A stretch of 64,000 nt of DNA from contig VBFH01000029.1 in NCBI GenBank assembly GCA_005883575.1, positions 1 to 64,000 of the forward strand, given 5' to 3'. The notes below the pieces were generated by a model. It had not been told where the DNA came from. It made no database searches and saw nothing but the letters and a program-made list of their open reading frames with translations. The stretch comes from Chloroflexota bacterium. Its GTDB lineage: Bacteria > Chloroflexota > Dormibacteria > Dormibacterales > Dormibacteraceae. Positions 29,154-35,570 of the stretch are shown here, piece by piece (the first letter of the stretch is position 1; each line of letters begins with the position of its first letter). Position numbers and translations under genes: made by a program.

Positions 29154-30260
29154 ATGGCGGCGATGGCGAAGTTGGAAAGTGAGGTCGCACGCGCGTCGAC
29201 CCTGCCCTCGGAGGTCTACCTCGACCCGGCCGTGCTCGAGCTCGAGAAAGACCGCATCTTTGCGCGCACCTGGCAGCTCGTCGCGCACCGGACCGAGCTT
29301 GCGCGACCCGGGGACTTCAAGCCCGCAACGATTCTCGACGAGCCAATCCTGCTGACCCACGGGCTGGACGGAAGGCTGCGCGGCTTCTACAACGTGTGCC
29401 GGCACCGGGCGGCGCAGGTCGTGACCACGCGCGGCAACCGCAAATCGCTGCAGTGCGGCTACCACGGTTGGGTCTACGGCCTCGACGGAACGCTGCAGAC
29501 GGCGCGCGAGATGGAGGGGACCGAAGACTTCGACAAGGCCGACTTCGGCCTGGTGCCGATCCGCGTCGACACCCTGGGACCGTTCGTCTTCGCCAACCTC
29601 GACTCCCGCGCCGCCCCTCTCGCGGACTGGATCGGCGCCATTCCTTCAGAAATTGCCAGGGCCGGCTACGACATCGACACGATGCGCCTGATCGAAAGGC
29701 GCGACTACGACATCGCGTGCAACTGGAAGGTCTACGTCGACAACTACCTCGAGGGCTATCACCTGCCGATCGCGCATCCAGGTCTTTTCAAAGAGCTCGA
29801 GTACGACAACTATCGCGTCGAGACCTTTCGTTACTACTCCAAGCAGCACGCGCCGATTCGGGAGTTGAAGCCTGGCGAGGTGCCTGGCCGCGATCGGCGA
29901 TACATCCGCATGCCGGGCGCCGAGGAAGACGCGCTCTACTACTGGATCTTCCCGAACACGATGCTGAACATCTACCAGGACAACCTCAGCACCAACGTCA
30001 TCCTGCCCCTTGGCGTCGATCGCACGTTGACGATCTTCGAGTGGTATTTCGCGGAGCCTGGCACCGGAGCCGGCTGGGAGTCGATGCAGCAGACGATCGC
30101 GTTCTCCGACCAGATCCAGCAGGAGGACATCGGGGTCTGCGAGCAGGTGCAGCGTGGCTTGCGCTCGCGCTCCTACAGCCGCGGACGTTTCTCGGCGCTG
30201 CGTGAGAACGGAGTGCACCATTTCCAGTCGCTGGTGACCGAGTTCCTGGACCGGGCCTAG
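29154..30260 (+). CDS. Rieske-type aromatic-ring hydroxylase alpha subunit-like oxygenase
   Basis: The 368-residue protein has the Rieske cluster ligands in NVCRHRAAQV and CGYHGWVYGL, then the mononuclear iron site in DNYLEGYHLPIAHPGL. This layout is shared with choline/carnitine-type monooxygenases and ring hydroxylases. No reductase or beta subunit lies nearby, so its electron partner is elsewhere. Start ATG 29154, or ATG 29163. It overlaps the convergent kinase gene by four bases. Confidence 0.85.
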   Translation: MAAMAKLESEVARASTLPSEVYLDPAVLELEKDRIFARTWQLVAHRTELARPGDFKPATILDEPILLTHGLDGRLRGFYNVCRHRAAQVVTTRGNRKSLQCGYHGWVYGLDGTLQTAREMEGTEDFDKADFGLVPIRVDTLGPFVFANLDSRAAPLADWIGAIPSEIARAGYDIDTMRLIERRDYDIACNWKVYVDNYLEGYHLPIAHPGLFKELEYDNYRVETFRYYSKQHAPIRELKPGEVPGRDRRYIRMPGAEEDALYYWIFPNTMLNIYQDNLSTNVILPLGVDRTLTIFEWYFAEPGTGAGWESMQQTIAFSDQIQQEDIGVCEQVQRGLRSRSYSRGRFSALRENGVHHFQSLVTEFLDRA

Positions 30261-32428
30261 ACTTTCGCGACCTCCGCGGTCGGCGCCGCTGTCAGCGGAA
30301 CCGTGAAGTGGAAGTCGGAGCCGCTGCCCGGCTCGCTGTCCACCCAGATCTTGCCCCCGTGCATCTCGATGATCTGCCGCGTGATGGCGAGGCCGAGACC
30401 CGTGCCGAGGATCTTGTTCGCCGTCTTCTCGTATCGCTCGTAGCGACTGAACAGGCGCTGGATGAACTCGGGCGCGATCCCGATGCCATGGTCCCGGATG
30501 CTCACGTCCACGTGCCCATCGCGGACGACGGTGCTCACCGCGATCTCGCCGCCGTCGGGCGAGTACTTGATCGCGTTGCTCAGGAGGTTGGCCGCGACCT
30601 GGGCGATTCGGTCGGGGTCGCACTGGACCGATGGTGTCCCGTCGAAGTTGCACACGATGAAGTGGCGAGCGCTGGAGGCGCGCGCCCGGTCAACCGCGTC
30701 TTCGAGCAGCGTGGTGAGGTCGACCTGCTGCAGGTGGAGGGTCAGGCGGCCGGCCTCGATGCGGTCAAGGTCCAGCATATCGTTGATCATCCGATTCAGA
30801 CGCTCGGCATCCTTGTTGATGTCGCCGGCGTAGGTCTTGGCCTCGTCGAGCGATACGTCCTCGTCGCGGATCATCTCGCTGAAGCCCGAGATGCCGACCA
30901 GCGCGGTTCGGAACTCGTGACTCACGAGCGAGACGAACTCGCTCTTCAGCCGGTTCAGGCGCTCGAGTCCAGCGAGGTGGGCGGCCGCCGCTTCGTTGGC
31001 CGCGTGCTCGGCGTCGGCGTCTTCGTACATCGCCAGGAAGTAGTCGATGCGGCCGGACGCATTGCGAACCGCGGTGGCGCTCCAGTGCAGCCACACCTCG
31101 GTGTTGTCGGCCCTGACGGCATGGCTCTCGGACTCGATCGTGTCGACGGCTCCCTTCCAGAGTGGCTGAAATTCCTGAAAGACGCGCGCGAACTCCTCCG
31201 GCTGAAGGTACTTGGCGACCGGTGTGCCGATCATCTTTTGGGGGTCGGTCCGGAGCAGCGCTGCCATCCGCGGATTGACGTCGATGACGTTCATGTCGAT
31301 CCCGACGCGCGCGATACCCAGCGGCGCATGCGTGACGATCTCGTCCAGCAGGCTGTTGCGGCGGCCAAGCTGAGTTTCGGCGCGCTGGCTCTTCCGCAAC
31401 AGGTCCAGCGAGTCGCGATGGGTGAGCACCTGGTTGGCGACGAGGAGGATCCCGATCCCTCCCGCCAACACGGTGGAGAAGCTGTCCAGGTTCTGACCGA
31501 TCACGGCCTGCCTGATCGCCGTCACCGCCGCCGCGAAGACGGCGACCCACGGCAGCCCCAGCTGCCACAGCTCGATCGGACCCTCCGCGCGCCTCTCGTC
31601 GGAAGAGCGCGTTGGCCACAACGGGGCGAGCGCGATCATCAGGTAACCCGCGACCCAGCCGGCGTCGAGGACGCTGCCCATCGCGCCGTAGGTGCCGTTC
31701 GCTGTGAGGTACGCGAACGCACTGTCCGCCAGCGCGTTGCACGCTAGGCCGCCGAGCAGCAAGAGCATGCGGCCCACCTCGGCCCGTCTCGCCCGCCGGA
31801 GGGCGACGACCACCACGGTCGCAGTGACGATGTCGCCGATCGGATAGGCGAGACCGATCAGCTGTGCCTCAGGGCTCGTGCTGGAGGTGTCATAGACCTT
31901 GCCCAGACCGAACGACCAGGCGATGAAGAGCAGGGAAAGGGCGACGATCGACCCGGCGAGCACTGTTTCGCCTCGGGTCGCCAGCCGGGTGGGCGCCGAC
32001 GTGAACGCGAAAACGCCAGCAATCGCAAGCGGGATCGCGAGCAGGTAAGCTCCGTCCGCCGAAGAGGGGAACGGGACGGCCTCACCCTGGATGACCTCGT
32101 TCCAGGACCAGATGACCTCGCCCACCGCCCAGCTCAGGGCGGACAGGCCAAGCAGGGCCCACGCCATTCGCACCCGGCCGCTGTTTCGCCACGCCGCGAA
32201 CCCGCAGCTTCCGGCCGCGATGAATGCCGCGACTGCCTCGCCGATGTCGTCGATGCCGATCGTCACGTCGTCGCTGACCCAGCGATTGGCGGTCCAGGCG
32301 ATGAAGAGGATCGAGACGATGACAGCGGAGGCCGCGGACGCGGCAAATGGCCCCCAGCCCTCGATGCCCAGGCCCGTCACGACGATTGGCCGCCGCTGGA
32401 CAAGGGTCAGGCTGGGAGCTTGCTGCAC
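30257..32428 (-). CDS. membrane PAS sensor histidine kinase
   Basis: This protein has about 723 residues. An N-terminal region of eight or nine helices (residues about 20-340) is followed by a PAS domain (GIARVGIDMNVIDVNPRMAAL). The HisKA H-box SHEFRTALVGISGF has Ala where Pro is usual. The ATPase boxes NLLSNAIKYSPDG, DHGIGIAPEF and GTGLGLAI follow. No cognate regulator is adjacent, although a receiver/HD-GYP gene lies 2.2 kb away. GTG 32428 is chosen because TACGCT lies exactly six bases upstream; ATG 32455 is the longer reading. Confidence 0.85.
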   Translation of the reverse strand: MQQAPSLTLVQRRPIVVTGLGIEGWGPFAASAASAVIVSILFIAWTANRWVSDDVTIGIDDIGEAVAAFIAAGSCGFAAWRNSGRVRMAWALLGLSALSWAVGEVIWSWNEVIQGEAVPFPSSADGAYLLAIPLAIAGVFAFTSAPTRLATRGETVLAGSIVALSLLFIAWSFGLGKVYDTSSTSPEAQLIGLAYPIGDIVTATVVVVALRRARRAEVGRMLLLLGGLACNALADSAFAYLTANGTYGAMGSVLDAGWVAGYLMIALAPLWPTRSSDERRAEGPIELWQLGLPWVAVFAAAVTAIRQAVIGQNLDSFSTVLAGGIGILLVANQVLTHRDSLDLLRKSQRAETQLGRRNSLLDEIVTHAPLGIARVGIDMNVIDVNPRMAALLRTDPQKMIGTPVAKYLQPEEFARVFQEFQPLWKGAVDTIESESHAVRADNTEVWLHWSATAVRNASGRIDYFLAMYEDADAEHAANEAAAAHLAGLERLNRLKSEFVSLVSHEFRTALVGISGFSEMIRDEDVSLDEAKTYAGDINKDAERLNRMINDMLDLDRIEAGRLTLHLQQVDLTTLLEDAVDRARASSARHFIVCNFDGTPSVQCDPDRIAQVAANLLSNAIKYSPDGGEIAVSTVVRDGHVDVSIRDHGIGIAPEFIQRLFSRYERYEKTANKILGTGLGLAITRQIIEMHGGKIWVDSEPGSGSDFHFTVPLTAAPTAEVAKV

Positions 32429-32434
32429 CCCCCG

Positions 32435-32440
32435 AGCGTA
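32435..32440 (-). promoter_or_regulatory. -10 box TACGCT for leaderless histidine kinase mRNA
   Basis: On the minus strand TACGCT is followed by CGGGGG and then GTG 32428. It decides the start: the ATG at 32455 would lie upstream of the predicted transcript. Confidence 0.4.
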
Positions 32441-32597
32441 AGCCTGGCTACACATGCTCAGGCCGTGAATACGAAAAATCGCGCGCGGTCGTTAAGTGGC
32501 GGGAGATTTGATTTAACATGGCGGGGCAGTTACTTGTAGCACAGCCGCAAGGGTGTAGAGCACGGCTTACGGGAGGACTGCGATTCCAGCGGAAATC

Positions 32598-32891
32598 TTG
32601 AGGCAGGGGTTGGCGCGCAAGGTCATCGACCGGGAGGAGGAGGTGGCCGAGGCGAGCGCCAGCCGCACGATCGCACTGATCGTGGTCGTGGCTCTCGTGG
32701 TCGTCGTGGCTGTGCTGCCAGCGGCCGTTGCGCTCGCGCTGACGAGCGGAGTGTCCGGGCCTTTGGCCGCGGGATTGGGCGGCCTGGTTGCGGTCATAGG
32801 TGGGGGGAAGTTGGCGGCGGCGCTTTGGGGCCTGGGGTCTCGCGTTCTGGCCCATCCAAGGCTTCGGATGGGCGCGGCCTCCATCGAGTAG
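32598..32891 (+). CDS. small membrane protein upstream of the peptide/XRE-TPR locus
   Basis: The 97-residue protein has an acidic N-terminal stretch (DREEEVAEASAS) and two hydrophobic segments at about 24-50 and 55-75. I recognise no family. TTG 32598 overlaps the stop of a 27-residue upstream frame (ATG 32518) as TTGA, so that frame could be a leader that couples translation. The protein might act as a membrane partner for the adjacent secreted peptide, but only position suggests this. Confidence 0.5.
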   Translation: MRQGLARKVIDREEEVAEASASRTIALIVVVALVVVVAVLPAAVALALTSGVSGPLAAGLGGLVAVIGGGKLAAALWGLGSRVLAHPRLRMGAASIE

Positions 32892-32950
32892 CGGTCCGTC
32901 TAACACCGTCTGTCCCAACCCTTGGCCGGCAGGCAAAGGAGGTGAGTTGA

Positions 32951-33046
32951 ATGCGCAAATTGCTGTTTGCCGCCATTCTGGCGGTCTCGGCGATGATGAC
33001 CCTGGCGGTGACCGTCGCCGCTGATGGTATCGGCCCCTGTTGCTGA
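32951..33046 (+). CDS. 31-residue secreted peptide, candidate signal
   Basis: The reading frame encodes an Arg-Lys n-region and a hydrophobic core (LLFAAILAVSAMMTLAV). A VAA signal-peptidase-like site follows, leaving DGIGPCC at the end. Its ribosome site AAAGGAGGTGA (32935-32945), eight bases upstream by core spacing, is almost the full anti-Shine-Dalgarno complement, so this tiny frame is very likely translated. The XRE-TPR regulator starts 58 bases downstream. The layout resembles RNPP-type peptide-sensing pairs, where a short C-terminal peptide is exported, matured and re-imported. The function is inference. Confidence 0.6.
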   Translation: MRKLLFAAILAVSAMMTLAVTVAADGIGPCC

Positions 33047-33092
33047 TTCTCTAAACCCTTCTAAACAATCGTCAAGTCAAAGGGACCTGCGT

Positions 33093-33098
33093 TAAGCT
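33093..33098 (+). promoter_or_regulatory. -10 box TAAGCT, leaderless XRE-TPR promoter
   Basis: TAAGCT lies six bases before GTG 33105, so the regulator probably has its own start site separate from the peptide gene, whose stop is at 33046. Confidence 0.45.
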
Positions 33099-33104
33099 GG
33101 CCAC

Positions 33105-34502
33105 GTGCCAGACGTGCGCGCGTACCCGATGACCCAGGCGGACGGCTCGAGTGAGCAAGGGAGAGCTCCCTCGGGCCGCCGTCGCGGGCGCCGCCGCGGC
33201 CTAGAAGTGCGGCCAGGCTCTGTCAAGCAAGCCCGCATGGAGGCAGGACTGAGTCTCGGCCAGGTCGCCCAGGGCGACATCAGCCGGACCGCCATCTACT
33301 TCGTCGAGACGGGCAAGGCCAAACCCTCCCTCGAAACGCTCCAGCTCATCGCCCAGCGGACGAGCAAGCCGCTGGAGTACTTCCTCGGTGACGCCGTCGG
33401 ACTCAGCGATGAGGCCGCGCTGGGACAGCTCGAGCGGTTGGTCGCAATCGGCGACAACGCCGGCGCAGTTGCCGCCGGCGACGCCATGCTGACCCGGACC
33501 TCGGACGGCAGCAACGCAGCACACGCCAGGATGCTCCTGGCGATCGCGCATGTCCGGCTGGCTCAGCCTGTGCGGGCACGCAGCCACGCTTCCGCCGCAC
33601 GAGCTTATTTCGAGCGGACCCAGGACGTCCTAATGACGGCCGAGTCCATGAGCTGGGAGGCTGCAAGCGCGATGTTGATGCAGGACCCAGTCGCGCTGGA
33701 CCTGGCCGAGGACGCGCTCGCAAGATGCCGTTCCCTCAACCCCGTGCCGAACACGACCGAAGCCAAGCTGCTCGCGATCGTCGGCCATGTCCGCAATGCG
33801 CGACACGAGTACGCGAAGGCGATCCAGGCCTACGAGGAAGCGGTTGCAGTCGGCTCATCCCTGCAGGATTTGCGCCGGCTCTCCTATGTGTACGGCAACC
33901 TGAGCCTCGCCTATTCAGAAACCGGTCAGCACGGCCAAGCTGCGCATTACGCCCACCGCGCCATGGCGCTCTACGAAACTCTTCATGACCGGCTTTCGCT
34001 GGCCTGGGCGAAAAACAACCTTGCGCTTCTTGTCTTCAAGCAGGGCGATCTCGCCGCTGCGCTCCGGCACGCCGAGAGCTCGATCACGCTGATCGAAGAG
34101 CTCGGAGTCGAGGCCGGAAAGGCTCACGTCCTGATGACGCTCTGTGAGCTCGAGCTCGCGAGATCGAACCACGACGAGGCGACCCGGCACGCGTCGGCCG
34201 CGCTCGAAGTGGCCGAACGGCTGGGTGAGACGACGAACGTCGGCGAAGCCCACGTCTGGCTCGGCAGCATCGCGGCGGCTCAAAACGACGCGGCCGCGGC
34301 GGACGAGGAGTTTGCGATCGCATTCGAGAGGTTCGATCTCGCCGAGGCTGTCGACTGGCAGGCTCGTGGGCACGCCGTCTACGCGGAGATTCTCGAGGCG
34401 CGCGGGAACCTCGTCGGGGCCAACCGCGAGCTAAGGTTGGCGCTGGCCGCCGTCGGCACCTGTACAAGCTCCGTGGAGGGCGCTCGCTTCGCCATCGCCT
34501 GA
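33105..34502 (+). CDS. XRE-family regulator with C-terminal TPR domain
   Basis: The 465-residue protein has a basic N-terminal tail, then a helix-turn-helix at about residues 36-96 (KQARMEAGLSLGQVAQ, ISRTAIYFVETGKAKPSLET). A long array of TPR-like helix pairs follows (LSLAYSETGQHGQAAHYAHRA, NLALLVFKQGDLAAALRHAE). An HTH plus TPR array is the architecture of RNPP/Rgg-type peptide receptors and of other TPR regulators. A small secreted peptide is encoded directly upstream. Targets are unknown; the peptide gene and the small membrane gene are natural candidates. Confidence 0.82.
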   Translation: MPDVRAYPMTQADGSSEQGRAPSGRRRGRRRGLEVRPGSVKQARMEAGLSLGQVAQGDISRTAIYFVETGKAKPSLETLQLIAQRTSKPLEYFLGDAVGLSDEAALGQLERLVAIGDNAGAVAAGDAMLTRTSDGSNAAHARMLLAIAHVRLAQPVRARSHASAARAYFERTQDVLMTAESMSWEAASAMLMQDPVALDLAEDALARCRSLNPVPNTTEAKLLAIVGHVRNARHEYAKAIQAYEEAVAVGSSLQDLRRLSYVYGNLSLAYSETGQHGQAAHYAHRAMALYETLHDRLSLAWAKNNLALLVFKQGDLAAALRHAESSITLIEELGVEAGKAHVLMTLCELELARSNHDEATRHASAALEVAERLGETTNVGEAHVWLGSIAAAQNDAAAADEEFAIAFERFDLAEAVDWQARGHAVYAEILEARGNLVGANRELRLALAAVGTCTSSVEGARFAIA

Positions 34503-34592: not shown

Positions 34593-34610
34593 TGGGGGAA
34601 TTTGGAACTG

Positions 34611-35570
34611 ATGCCGATCGTGTTGGTGGTCGACGACGGTGCGGCGAACCGCGAATTGATCCGCATGTACCTGTCGACTATCGATTGCGAGGTGTTGCTC
34701 GCGGCCGACGGTCCCTCAGCCCTCGCGTTGATCGAAACCACCCCGCCGGACCTGGTCCTGCTCGACGTGCGCATGCCGCGCATGGACGGTTACGAGGTGT
34801 GCCGCCGCATCAAGGCGATGCCGCGCGGGCGATTGCTGCCAGTGGTCATGATCACCGGGCTGAGCCAGACCACGCACCGGGTCATGGCACTCGAGGCCGG
34901 CGCGGACGATTTCATGGCCAAGCCGGTCGAAGGCGCCGAGCTGATCGCTCGCGTGCGGTCCGCGCTCCGGCTCAAAGAGCTCTACAACACGCTCGACGGC
35001 GCCGAGCACGTCATCTTCTCGCTGGCTACCGCGGTCGAGGCGAAGGACTCCTTCACCGAGCGGCACACGCAGCGGGTGGGCGAGGCGGCCCGCCTGCTCG
35101 GCCAGAAGCTGGGGCTGCCGGAGCACACGCTCGACACGCTGTACCGCGGCGGGATCATCCACGACATCGGCAAGATCGGCGTCTCGGATTCGATCCTGCA
35201 CAAGCCGGGTCCGCTGGATGCGATCGAACTTCCGCAGATGCAGGCGCACGTGGCGATCGGCGAGAGCATCGTGCGTCCGCTCCACTCGACGTCCGGACTG
35301 CTGCCCATCATCCGCCACCATCACGAGCGCTTCGACGGGTCTGGTTATCCGGACGGCCTGCGCTCGCGGGAGATCCCGCGAGCCGCGAGGATCGTTTCCG
35401 TCTGCGACGCCTTCGACGCCCTGGTCAACGACCGGCCGTACCGCACGCGGCGCTCGACCGAGGAAGCGCTGGCGGTGCTGCGGGCGGGCGCAGGGACGCA
35501 GTGGGACCCCGAGACGGTCGACCTCCTGGCGAGCGAGCTGCCGACCATCCGGCATCTCGGCGCTGCCTAA
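34611..35570 (+). CDS. response regulator with HD-GYP output domain
   Basis: In this 319-residue protein the receiver (1-125) has the acidic pair in LVVDDGAAN, the phospho-acceptor Asp52 in LVLLDVRMPRMDG, and Lys in MAKPVEG. The HD-GYP domain has IIHDIGKIG, RHHHERFDGSGYPDGL and VCDAFDALVNDRPYRT. It is probably a phosphorylation-controlled cyclic di-GMP phosphodiesterase of the RpfG class. ATG 34611 is preferred to TTG 34602. The orphan kinase at 30.3-32.4 kb is a possible partner. Confidence 0.88.
   Translation: MPIVLVVDDGAANRELIRMYLSTIDCEVLLAADGPSALALIETTPPDLVLLDVRMPRMDGYEVCRRIKAMPRGRLLPVVMITGLSQTTHRVMALEAGADDFMAKPVEGAELIARVRSALRLKELYNTLDGAEHVIFSLATAVEAKDSFTERHTQRVGEAARLLGQKLGLPEHTLDTLYRGGIIHDIGKIGVSDSILHKPGPLDAIELPQMQAHVAIGESIVRPLHSTSGLLPIIRHHHERFDGSGYPDGLRSREIPRAARIVSVCDAFDALVNDRPYRTRRSTEEALAVLRAGAGTQWDPETVDLLASELPTIRHLGAA

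Follow-up and report, generated by a model that had tools for sequence, protein, structure and literature searches.

The locus lies near the middle of a 64,000-nucleotide stretch of Dormibacteria DNA (hereafter, the window), and its features are collected in the table below. A sequence-only reading had described a 31-residue frame with a near-perfect Shine-Dalgarno sequence, placed 58 bases before an HTH and TPR gene, with a small membrane gene just upstream. All three points were borne out. The sequence and the ORF list gave a full Shine-Dalgarno sequence, AAAGGAGGTGA, and the coordinates and Pfam gave 58 nt between the propeptide stop codon and the GTG (33105) of an HTH-TPR regulator; the small membrane-protein frame was found where it had been proposed.

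Table. Features of the peptide-regulator locus in the window.
Feature	Position	Strand	Remarks
PAS-histidine kinase	30257-32455	-	Pfam; divergent, start faces the dyad; synteny conserved
Promoter/operator-like dyad GTTAAGT-N14-TTTAACATG	32491-32520	+	before the membrane-gene/peptide transcript
Small membrane-protein frame	32583/32598-32891	+	about 97-102 aa, two hydrophobic stretches
Shine-Dalgarno sequence AAAGGAGGTGA	32935-32945	+	full; kept in relatives
Propeptide gene MRKLLFAAILAVSAMMTLAVTVAADGIGPCC	32951-33046	+	31 codons; sequence and ORF list
Signal-peptide part of the propeptide gene	32951-33022	+	
Predicted signal DGIGPCC	33023-33043	+	C-terminal end of the propeptide
GTCAAGT half-site	33071-33077	+	between propeptide and regulator
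TTAAGCT, -10-like element	33092-33098	+	just before the regulator start
Regulator/receptor candidate, HTH + TPR	33105-34502	+	465 aa, GTG start; Pfam, AlphaFold2
Response regulator with HD_5 domain	34602-35570	+	Pfam; downstream neighbour of the regulator

The membrane-protein frame has 97 codons from the listed TTG start at 32598, or 102 from a possible ATT start at 32583. This ATT is in frame and six bases after GGGAGG, and a similar IPA/IPS start is seen in several relatives; if true, ATT would be a rare start codon. Neither Pfam nor NCBIfam assigned the frame to a family. Counterparts are present in most members of the regulator clade to which the window belongs, called here the xxCC clade after the ends of its peptides. 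The response regulator-HD_5 gene is retained downstream in most of the loci compared, and both this protein and the divergent PAS-histidine kinase are possible targets of the regulator.

Pfam found HTH_3 (residues 40-93) and TPR_12 in the regulator, both above the Pfam cut-offs, and the TPR superhelix spans about residues 97-452. The best bacterial matches of the AlphaFold2 model (pLDDT 90.8, 66 aligned sequences) were Rap 4gyo (Z 29.2 over 342 residues, rmsd 4.3) and NprR 5dbk (Z 28.8 over 345 residues, rmsd 4.7). The modelled fold suits a peptide receptor. We rejected the fold match as proof of common descent with the known RRNPPA subfamilies (Rap, Rgg, NprR, PlcR, PrgX, AimR, ComR), because eukaryotic LGN matches at least as well (Z 32.2, slightly above Rap and NprR); the TPR fold of the regulator is generic. 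No RRNPP-specific Pfam model matched the regulator at E<=1. The NsdA family of Streptomyces (NCBIfam NF053720) resembles it weakly, below the cut-off, in a match that covers the TPR part only; we know of no peptide partner of NsdA.

Regulator homologues were sought in 60 relatives, which are known here as draft or MAG-type assemblies only and whose named records are Chloroflexi/Ca. Dormibacterota soil MAGs. The earlier suggestion of an RNPP-like pair outside the Firmicutes agrees with this lineage. Upstream of most close homologues we found frames of about 31-36 codons that encode a hydrophobic core, begin MR[KR] (one MRS) and usually have a strong Shine-Dalgarno sequence; propeptide length is 31 aa in the window and 26-36 aa in most relatives. 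The pairing is present in two families of the class Dormibacteria, with frames of 28-36 codons at the same place. In the second family, the partner frame has 28 codons, mostly starts with GTG, and precedes regulators of 454 aa; its tails are, for example, EVWPNPM and GVWPNPT. When a peptide profile was used in a six-frame search of 42 family genomes, 33 had matches. In genomes whose regulators had been located as well, fewer than 400 nt separated 40 of the 41 strong matches (E<1e-5) from a regulator downstream on the same strand, and the 41st lay at a contig end. The matches in four further genomes also adjoined regulators.

Three frames stood apart. In one relative (L060, G036:C343), the frame MKPSRLRIVRALAVLALLAALNGSWTAFPPCC has a Shine-Dalgarno sequence, ends in PPCC and overlaps the stop-to-stop regulator frame, and its signal-peptide part is unlike those of the other propeptides. 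Another (L216) is a 60-codon frame upstream of a regulator with two similar tails, QAVIWPNGAP and ADIWPNDRTL, and resembles the repeated-pheromone propeptides of Bacilli. The genome of the window holds a second, weak profile match (L162, G000:C38:109308-109397; E 0.001), in a frame that is longer than the propeptides and may be unrelated.

Such a mini-frame was present upstream of 28/48 regulators and of 0/219 other long ORFs (Fisher p = 2.5e-25, a value that overstates independence because the loci are related). Of 39 distant XRE-TPR homologues in the phylum's other families, none had one on its upstream side. The mini-frame upstream of the regulator is more than chance, because the same kind of frame precedes most relatives' regulators. 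Nucleotide differences between close pairs fell 43/31/81 on the three codon positions (p = 2e-6), and this excess at the third position is as expected for a translated frame. The pN/pS of the propeptides was 0.54 in the signal part and 0.67 in the tail.

XRE-TPR genes that lack an upstream frame, which had been named beforehand as counter-evidence, do exist. Most of them form one coherent orphan clade, however, so that their existence is not decisive. A search of both flanks of the orphan set found no peptide genes for these paralogues. The window species has one such orphan (L041 / L168, G000:C81:49615-50952), which has no peptide gene; the gene next to it encodes a prephenate dehydratase, and ketol-acid reductoisomerase and a TPP-enzyme (acetolactate-synthase-like) are encoded nearby.

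We next consider what the small gene may encode. The propeptides have a positive start and a hydrophobic core, and a signal-peptidase-type site could be placed in all 38 peptides by the -3/-1 rule, with Ala at -1 in 38/38 and Val/Ala at -3 in 38/38. The tail after the site has 7 residues in 24 peptides, 8 in 13 and 9 in one; the sites were placed by eye, and the constant Ala at -1 and tail length are therefore a finding and not proof of cleavage. Since the frame is small and hydrophobic and adjoins the gene of an XRE-type protein, the two could also be read as a toxin-antitoxin-like pair, in which a membrane-active peptide is controlled by the regulator. We regard this as very improbable, as the -3/-1 site is strict, the tails are conserved and clade-specific, the chromosomal synteny is conserved and an antitoxin has no need of a 350-residue TPR domain.

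Gly and Pro are abundant in the tails, and in the window's clade Cys-Cys stands at or near the tail end, with one exception in clade A (GVIPPVG, without CC). The pairing with DGIGPCC-like tails that had been predicted for related genomes was thus found, with xxCC in nearly all members of the closest clade and other conserved tails in other clades. The types xxCC, STGPG[IV], IGPTP and WPP group by receptor clade on the regulator tree, and VWPNP is a further type that follows its clade. Several genomes hold at least two tail types; one (G022) has DGWPPHI, ETIGPTPK, DSIGPTGR and DSTGPHI. Within the genus, identity averages 69% in the signal part but only 25% in the residues before CC. Freely varying, untranslated tails had been named as a second refutation. 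The tails do vary, but they do so by clade, at a fixed distance from the A-x-A-type site and with substitution of the coding type; this is not decisive either. Tails of this composition, with CC almost constant in the window's clade, would also fit a secreted effector, either antimicrobial or metal-/redox-active through Cys-Cys, under the control of a regulator that senses something else, and the conserved small membrane protein next door could export such a peptide or give immunity. We consider an effector unlikely: CC is absent from the other receptor clades, where the tails are equally conserved, the tail type tracks the receptor clade, and no modification gene or dedicated export gene was seen in the syntenic block. 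As for the steps that a secreted signal would need, an S26 signal peptidase is encoded in the genome of the window, and SBP_bac_5 was matched there eight times, although genes of this family are widespread and not specific.

The receptor side varies as well. The regulator is the least conserved large protein of the syntenic block in the pairs compared, and its TPR part is less conserved in peptide-linked regulators than in the orphan paralogues in 52/55 species pairs (means 50% vs 68%). Residues 61-68, a helix of the HTH, show no variation within the peptide-linked clade. Mantel correlations were 0.63 between tail and TPR distances and 0.67 between signal-peptide and TPR distances. Because the second is no lower than the first, the tail-TPR correlation alone is no proof of co-evolution, and common descent could explain it.

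We also examined the DNA around the two genes for regulatory elements. TTAACA, within the dyad ahead of the membrane-gene/peptide transcript, is a possible -35 element. The dyad had one match each in 14/17 genus genomes (13 at this locus, the other close to the end of a contig); the reversed pattern had no match. With a single dyad per genome, the regulon could be very small. In the regulon search, the single block GCAGTTACTTGTAG gave nothing useful, and the orphan's ACTTAACNNNGTTAAGT was perfect only at its own gene. Just after the dyad, at 32513-32585, lie GGCAGTTACTTGTAGCACAGCC and a hairpin-like stretch, GCCG...CGGC. Both show strong conservation, within the genus and outside it, that exceeds what a coding frame would give, and the region is probably promoter plus leader. 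We do not claim it as a structured RNA: the hairpin is weak and shows little covariation, RNAalifold support is weak, and an Rfam search of 32300-33300 gave nothing credible.

In most of the xxCC clade, GTCAAGT is followed 14 nt on by TTAAGCTGGC, just before the regulator start codon, and in the window the corresponding elements (33071-33098) probably form the regulator's own promoter. In the window's regulator and in the orphans, -10-like elements (TTAAGCT; TATAAAGT) stand a few bases before GTG/ATG starts that have no Shine-Dalgarno sequence, suggesting leaderless mRNAs; judged by its sequence, the regulator mRNA is apparently leaderless. Upstream of the orphan regulators we found ACTTAAC-N3-GTTAAGT; TGAAAC..GTTTCA also occurs upstream in the orphan clade, and the operator-like ACTTAACATTGTTAAGT upstream of the window species' orphan is the only perfect copy in that genome. 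Relative to controls, the density of the half-site GT[C/T]AAGT was raised about 16- to 28-fold upstream of peptide genes and orphans. Its recurrence at promoters suggests that the regulator family may control its own genes through GT[C/T]AAGT.

These arrangements bear on the possibility that the mini-gene is a leader peptide (uORF) whose translation acts on the regulator in cis, through attenuation or coupling, and whose product has no signalling role. The mini-frame always lies just upstream on the same strand and sometimes overlaps the stop-to-stop regulator frame, as a uORF might. However, its distance from the regulator varies widely among relatives, and the regulator seems to own a promoter between the two genes. 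A cis leader would need no signal peptide, no A-x-A-type site and no clade-specific tail, and all of these are kept while third positions change. Like the effector, a leader peptide has in our opinion a small chance of being the correct explanation.

We compared the pair with the RRNPP systems, whose genes are nearly all in Bacilli (PMC9765709). A survey limited to Firmicutes and viruses (PMC10075063) used five computable criteria: a propeptide of 10-100 aa, Sec export, a receptor of 250-500 aa, TPRs in the receptor, usually with an HTH, and genes -60 to 400 bp apart. The window agrees with four of them, having a propeptide of 31 aa, a regulator of 465 aa, TPR_12 with HTH_3 and a distance of 58 bp; Sec export agrees by the -3/-1 rule only. 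The likeness to PlcR-PapR and NprR-NprX is close, with an HTH and TPR receptor of similar length, an adjacent small propeptide of predicted Sec type and a C-terminal signal of heptapeptide size (PapR7 is ADLPFEF; PMC6568020). Receptors without a propeptide are described in Firmicutes (PMC9765709), as here, where they make up a whole clade. The differences are that the host is not a Firmicute, that the predicted signal-peptidase cut would itself leave the signal, with no pro-region, and that the tails carry Cys-Cys. The propeptide gene also lies upstream of the receptor here, whereas in the Bacillus PlcR and NprR systems it lies downstream. Rap-Phr systems are alike in the TPR fold over the whole repeat part and in having several receptor-peptide pairs per genome. 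Rap proteins are not known to bind DNA and regulate response regulators, whereas the present regulator carries HTH_3. In AimR-AimP and Rgg/ComR-SHP/ComS, too, the HTH receptor contains TPRs and is encoded next to a small peptide gene (PMC9765709). Unlike AimR, the regulator has no phage context, and no relatives were found in the viral contigs searched; unlike SHP/ComS-type peptides, which are exported by PptAB and have no cleavable Sec signal (PMC9765709), the Dormibacteria propeptides show a predicted cleavable one. We call the system RNPP-like because its lineage, the upstream peptide, the lack of a pro-region and the Cys-Cys tails differ. A search of the open-licence PMC literature for RRNPP systems or peptide pheromones in Dormibacteria, Chloroflexota and Actinobacteria returned nothing relevant.

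Taken together, we favour, with a probability of roughly 0.7, an RNPP-like circuit of secreted peptide and cytoplasmic receptor outside the Firmicutes, in which export, uptake, binding, the direction of regulation and density dependence are the inferred parts. The 31-residue propeptide would be exported by the Sec route, and signal peptidase I would cut after Ala24 and so directly release the 7-residue DGIGPCC. This peptide would be taken back up, probably via an oligopeptide ABC importer, and bind the neighbouring HTH regulator in the groove of its TPR superhelix. Binding would alter the contact of the regulator with GT[C/T]AAGT, both at the membrane-gene/peptide promoter and in the promoter of the regulator gene itself. 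The circuit would thereby be autoregulated and might also act on the divergent histidine kinase and on the small membrane protein.

More tentatively, and at somewhat less than even odds, the circuit may be a peptide-pheromone system specific to Dormibacteria, which evolved out of a local XRE-TPR regulator and independently of RRNPPA. Signals of 7-8 residues, including possibly redox-dependent Cys-Cys heptapeptides, would then be products of signal peptidase alone, each cell would have several orthogonal channels, and the orphan receptors would share the operator half-site.

If the circuit is real, peptide quorum sensing extends to an uncultured soil lineage, the Dormibacteria, and the question arises whether the receptor-peptide design evolved twice. 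For dozens of species the loci predict the exact sequence of the signal, and these peptides are open to chemical synthesis and to assay on purified receptors, for which no culture would be needed.
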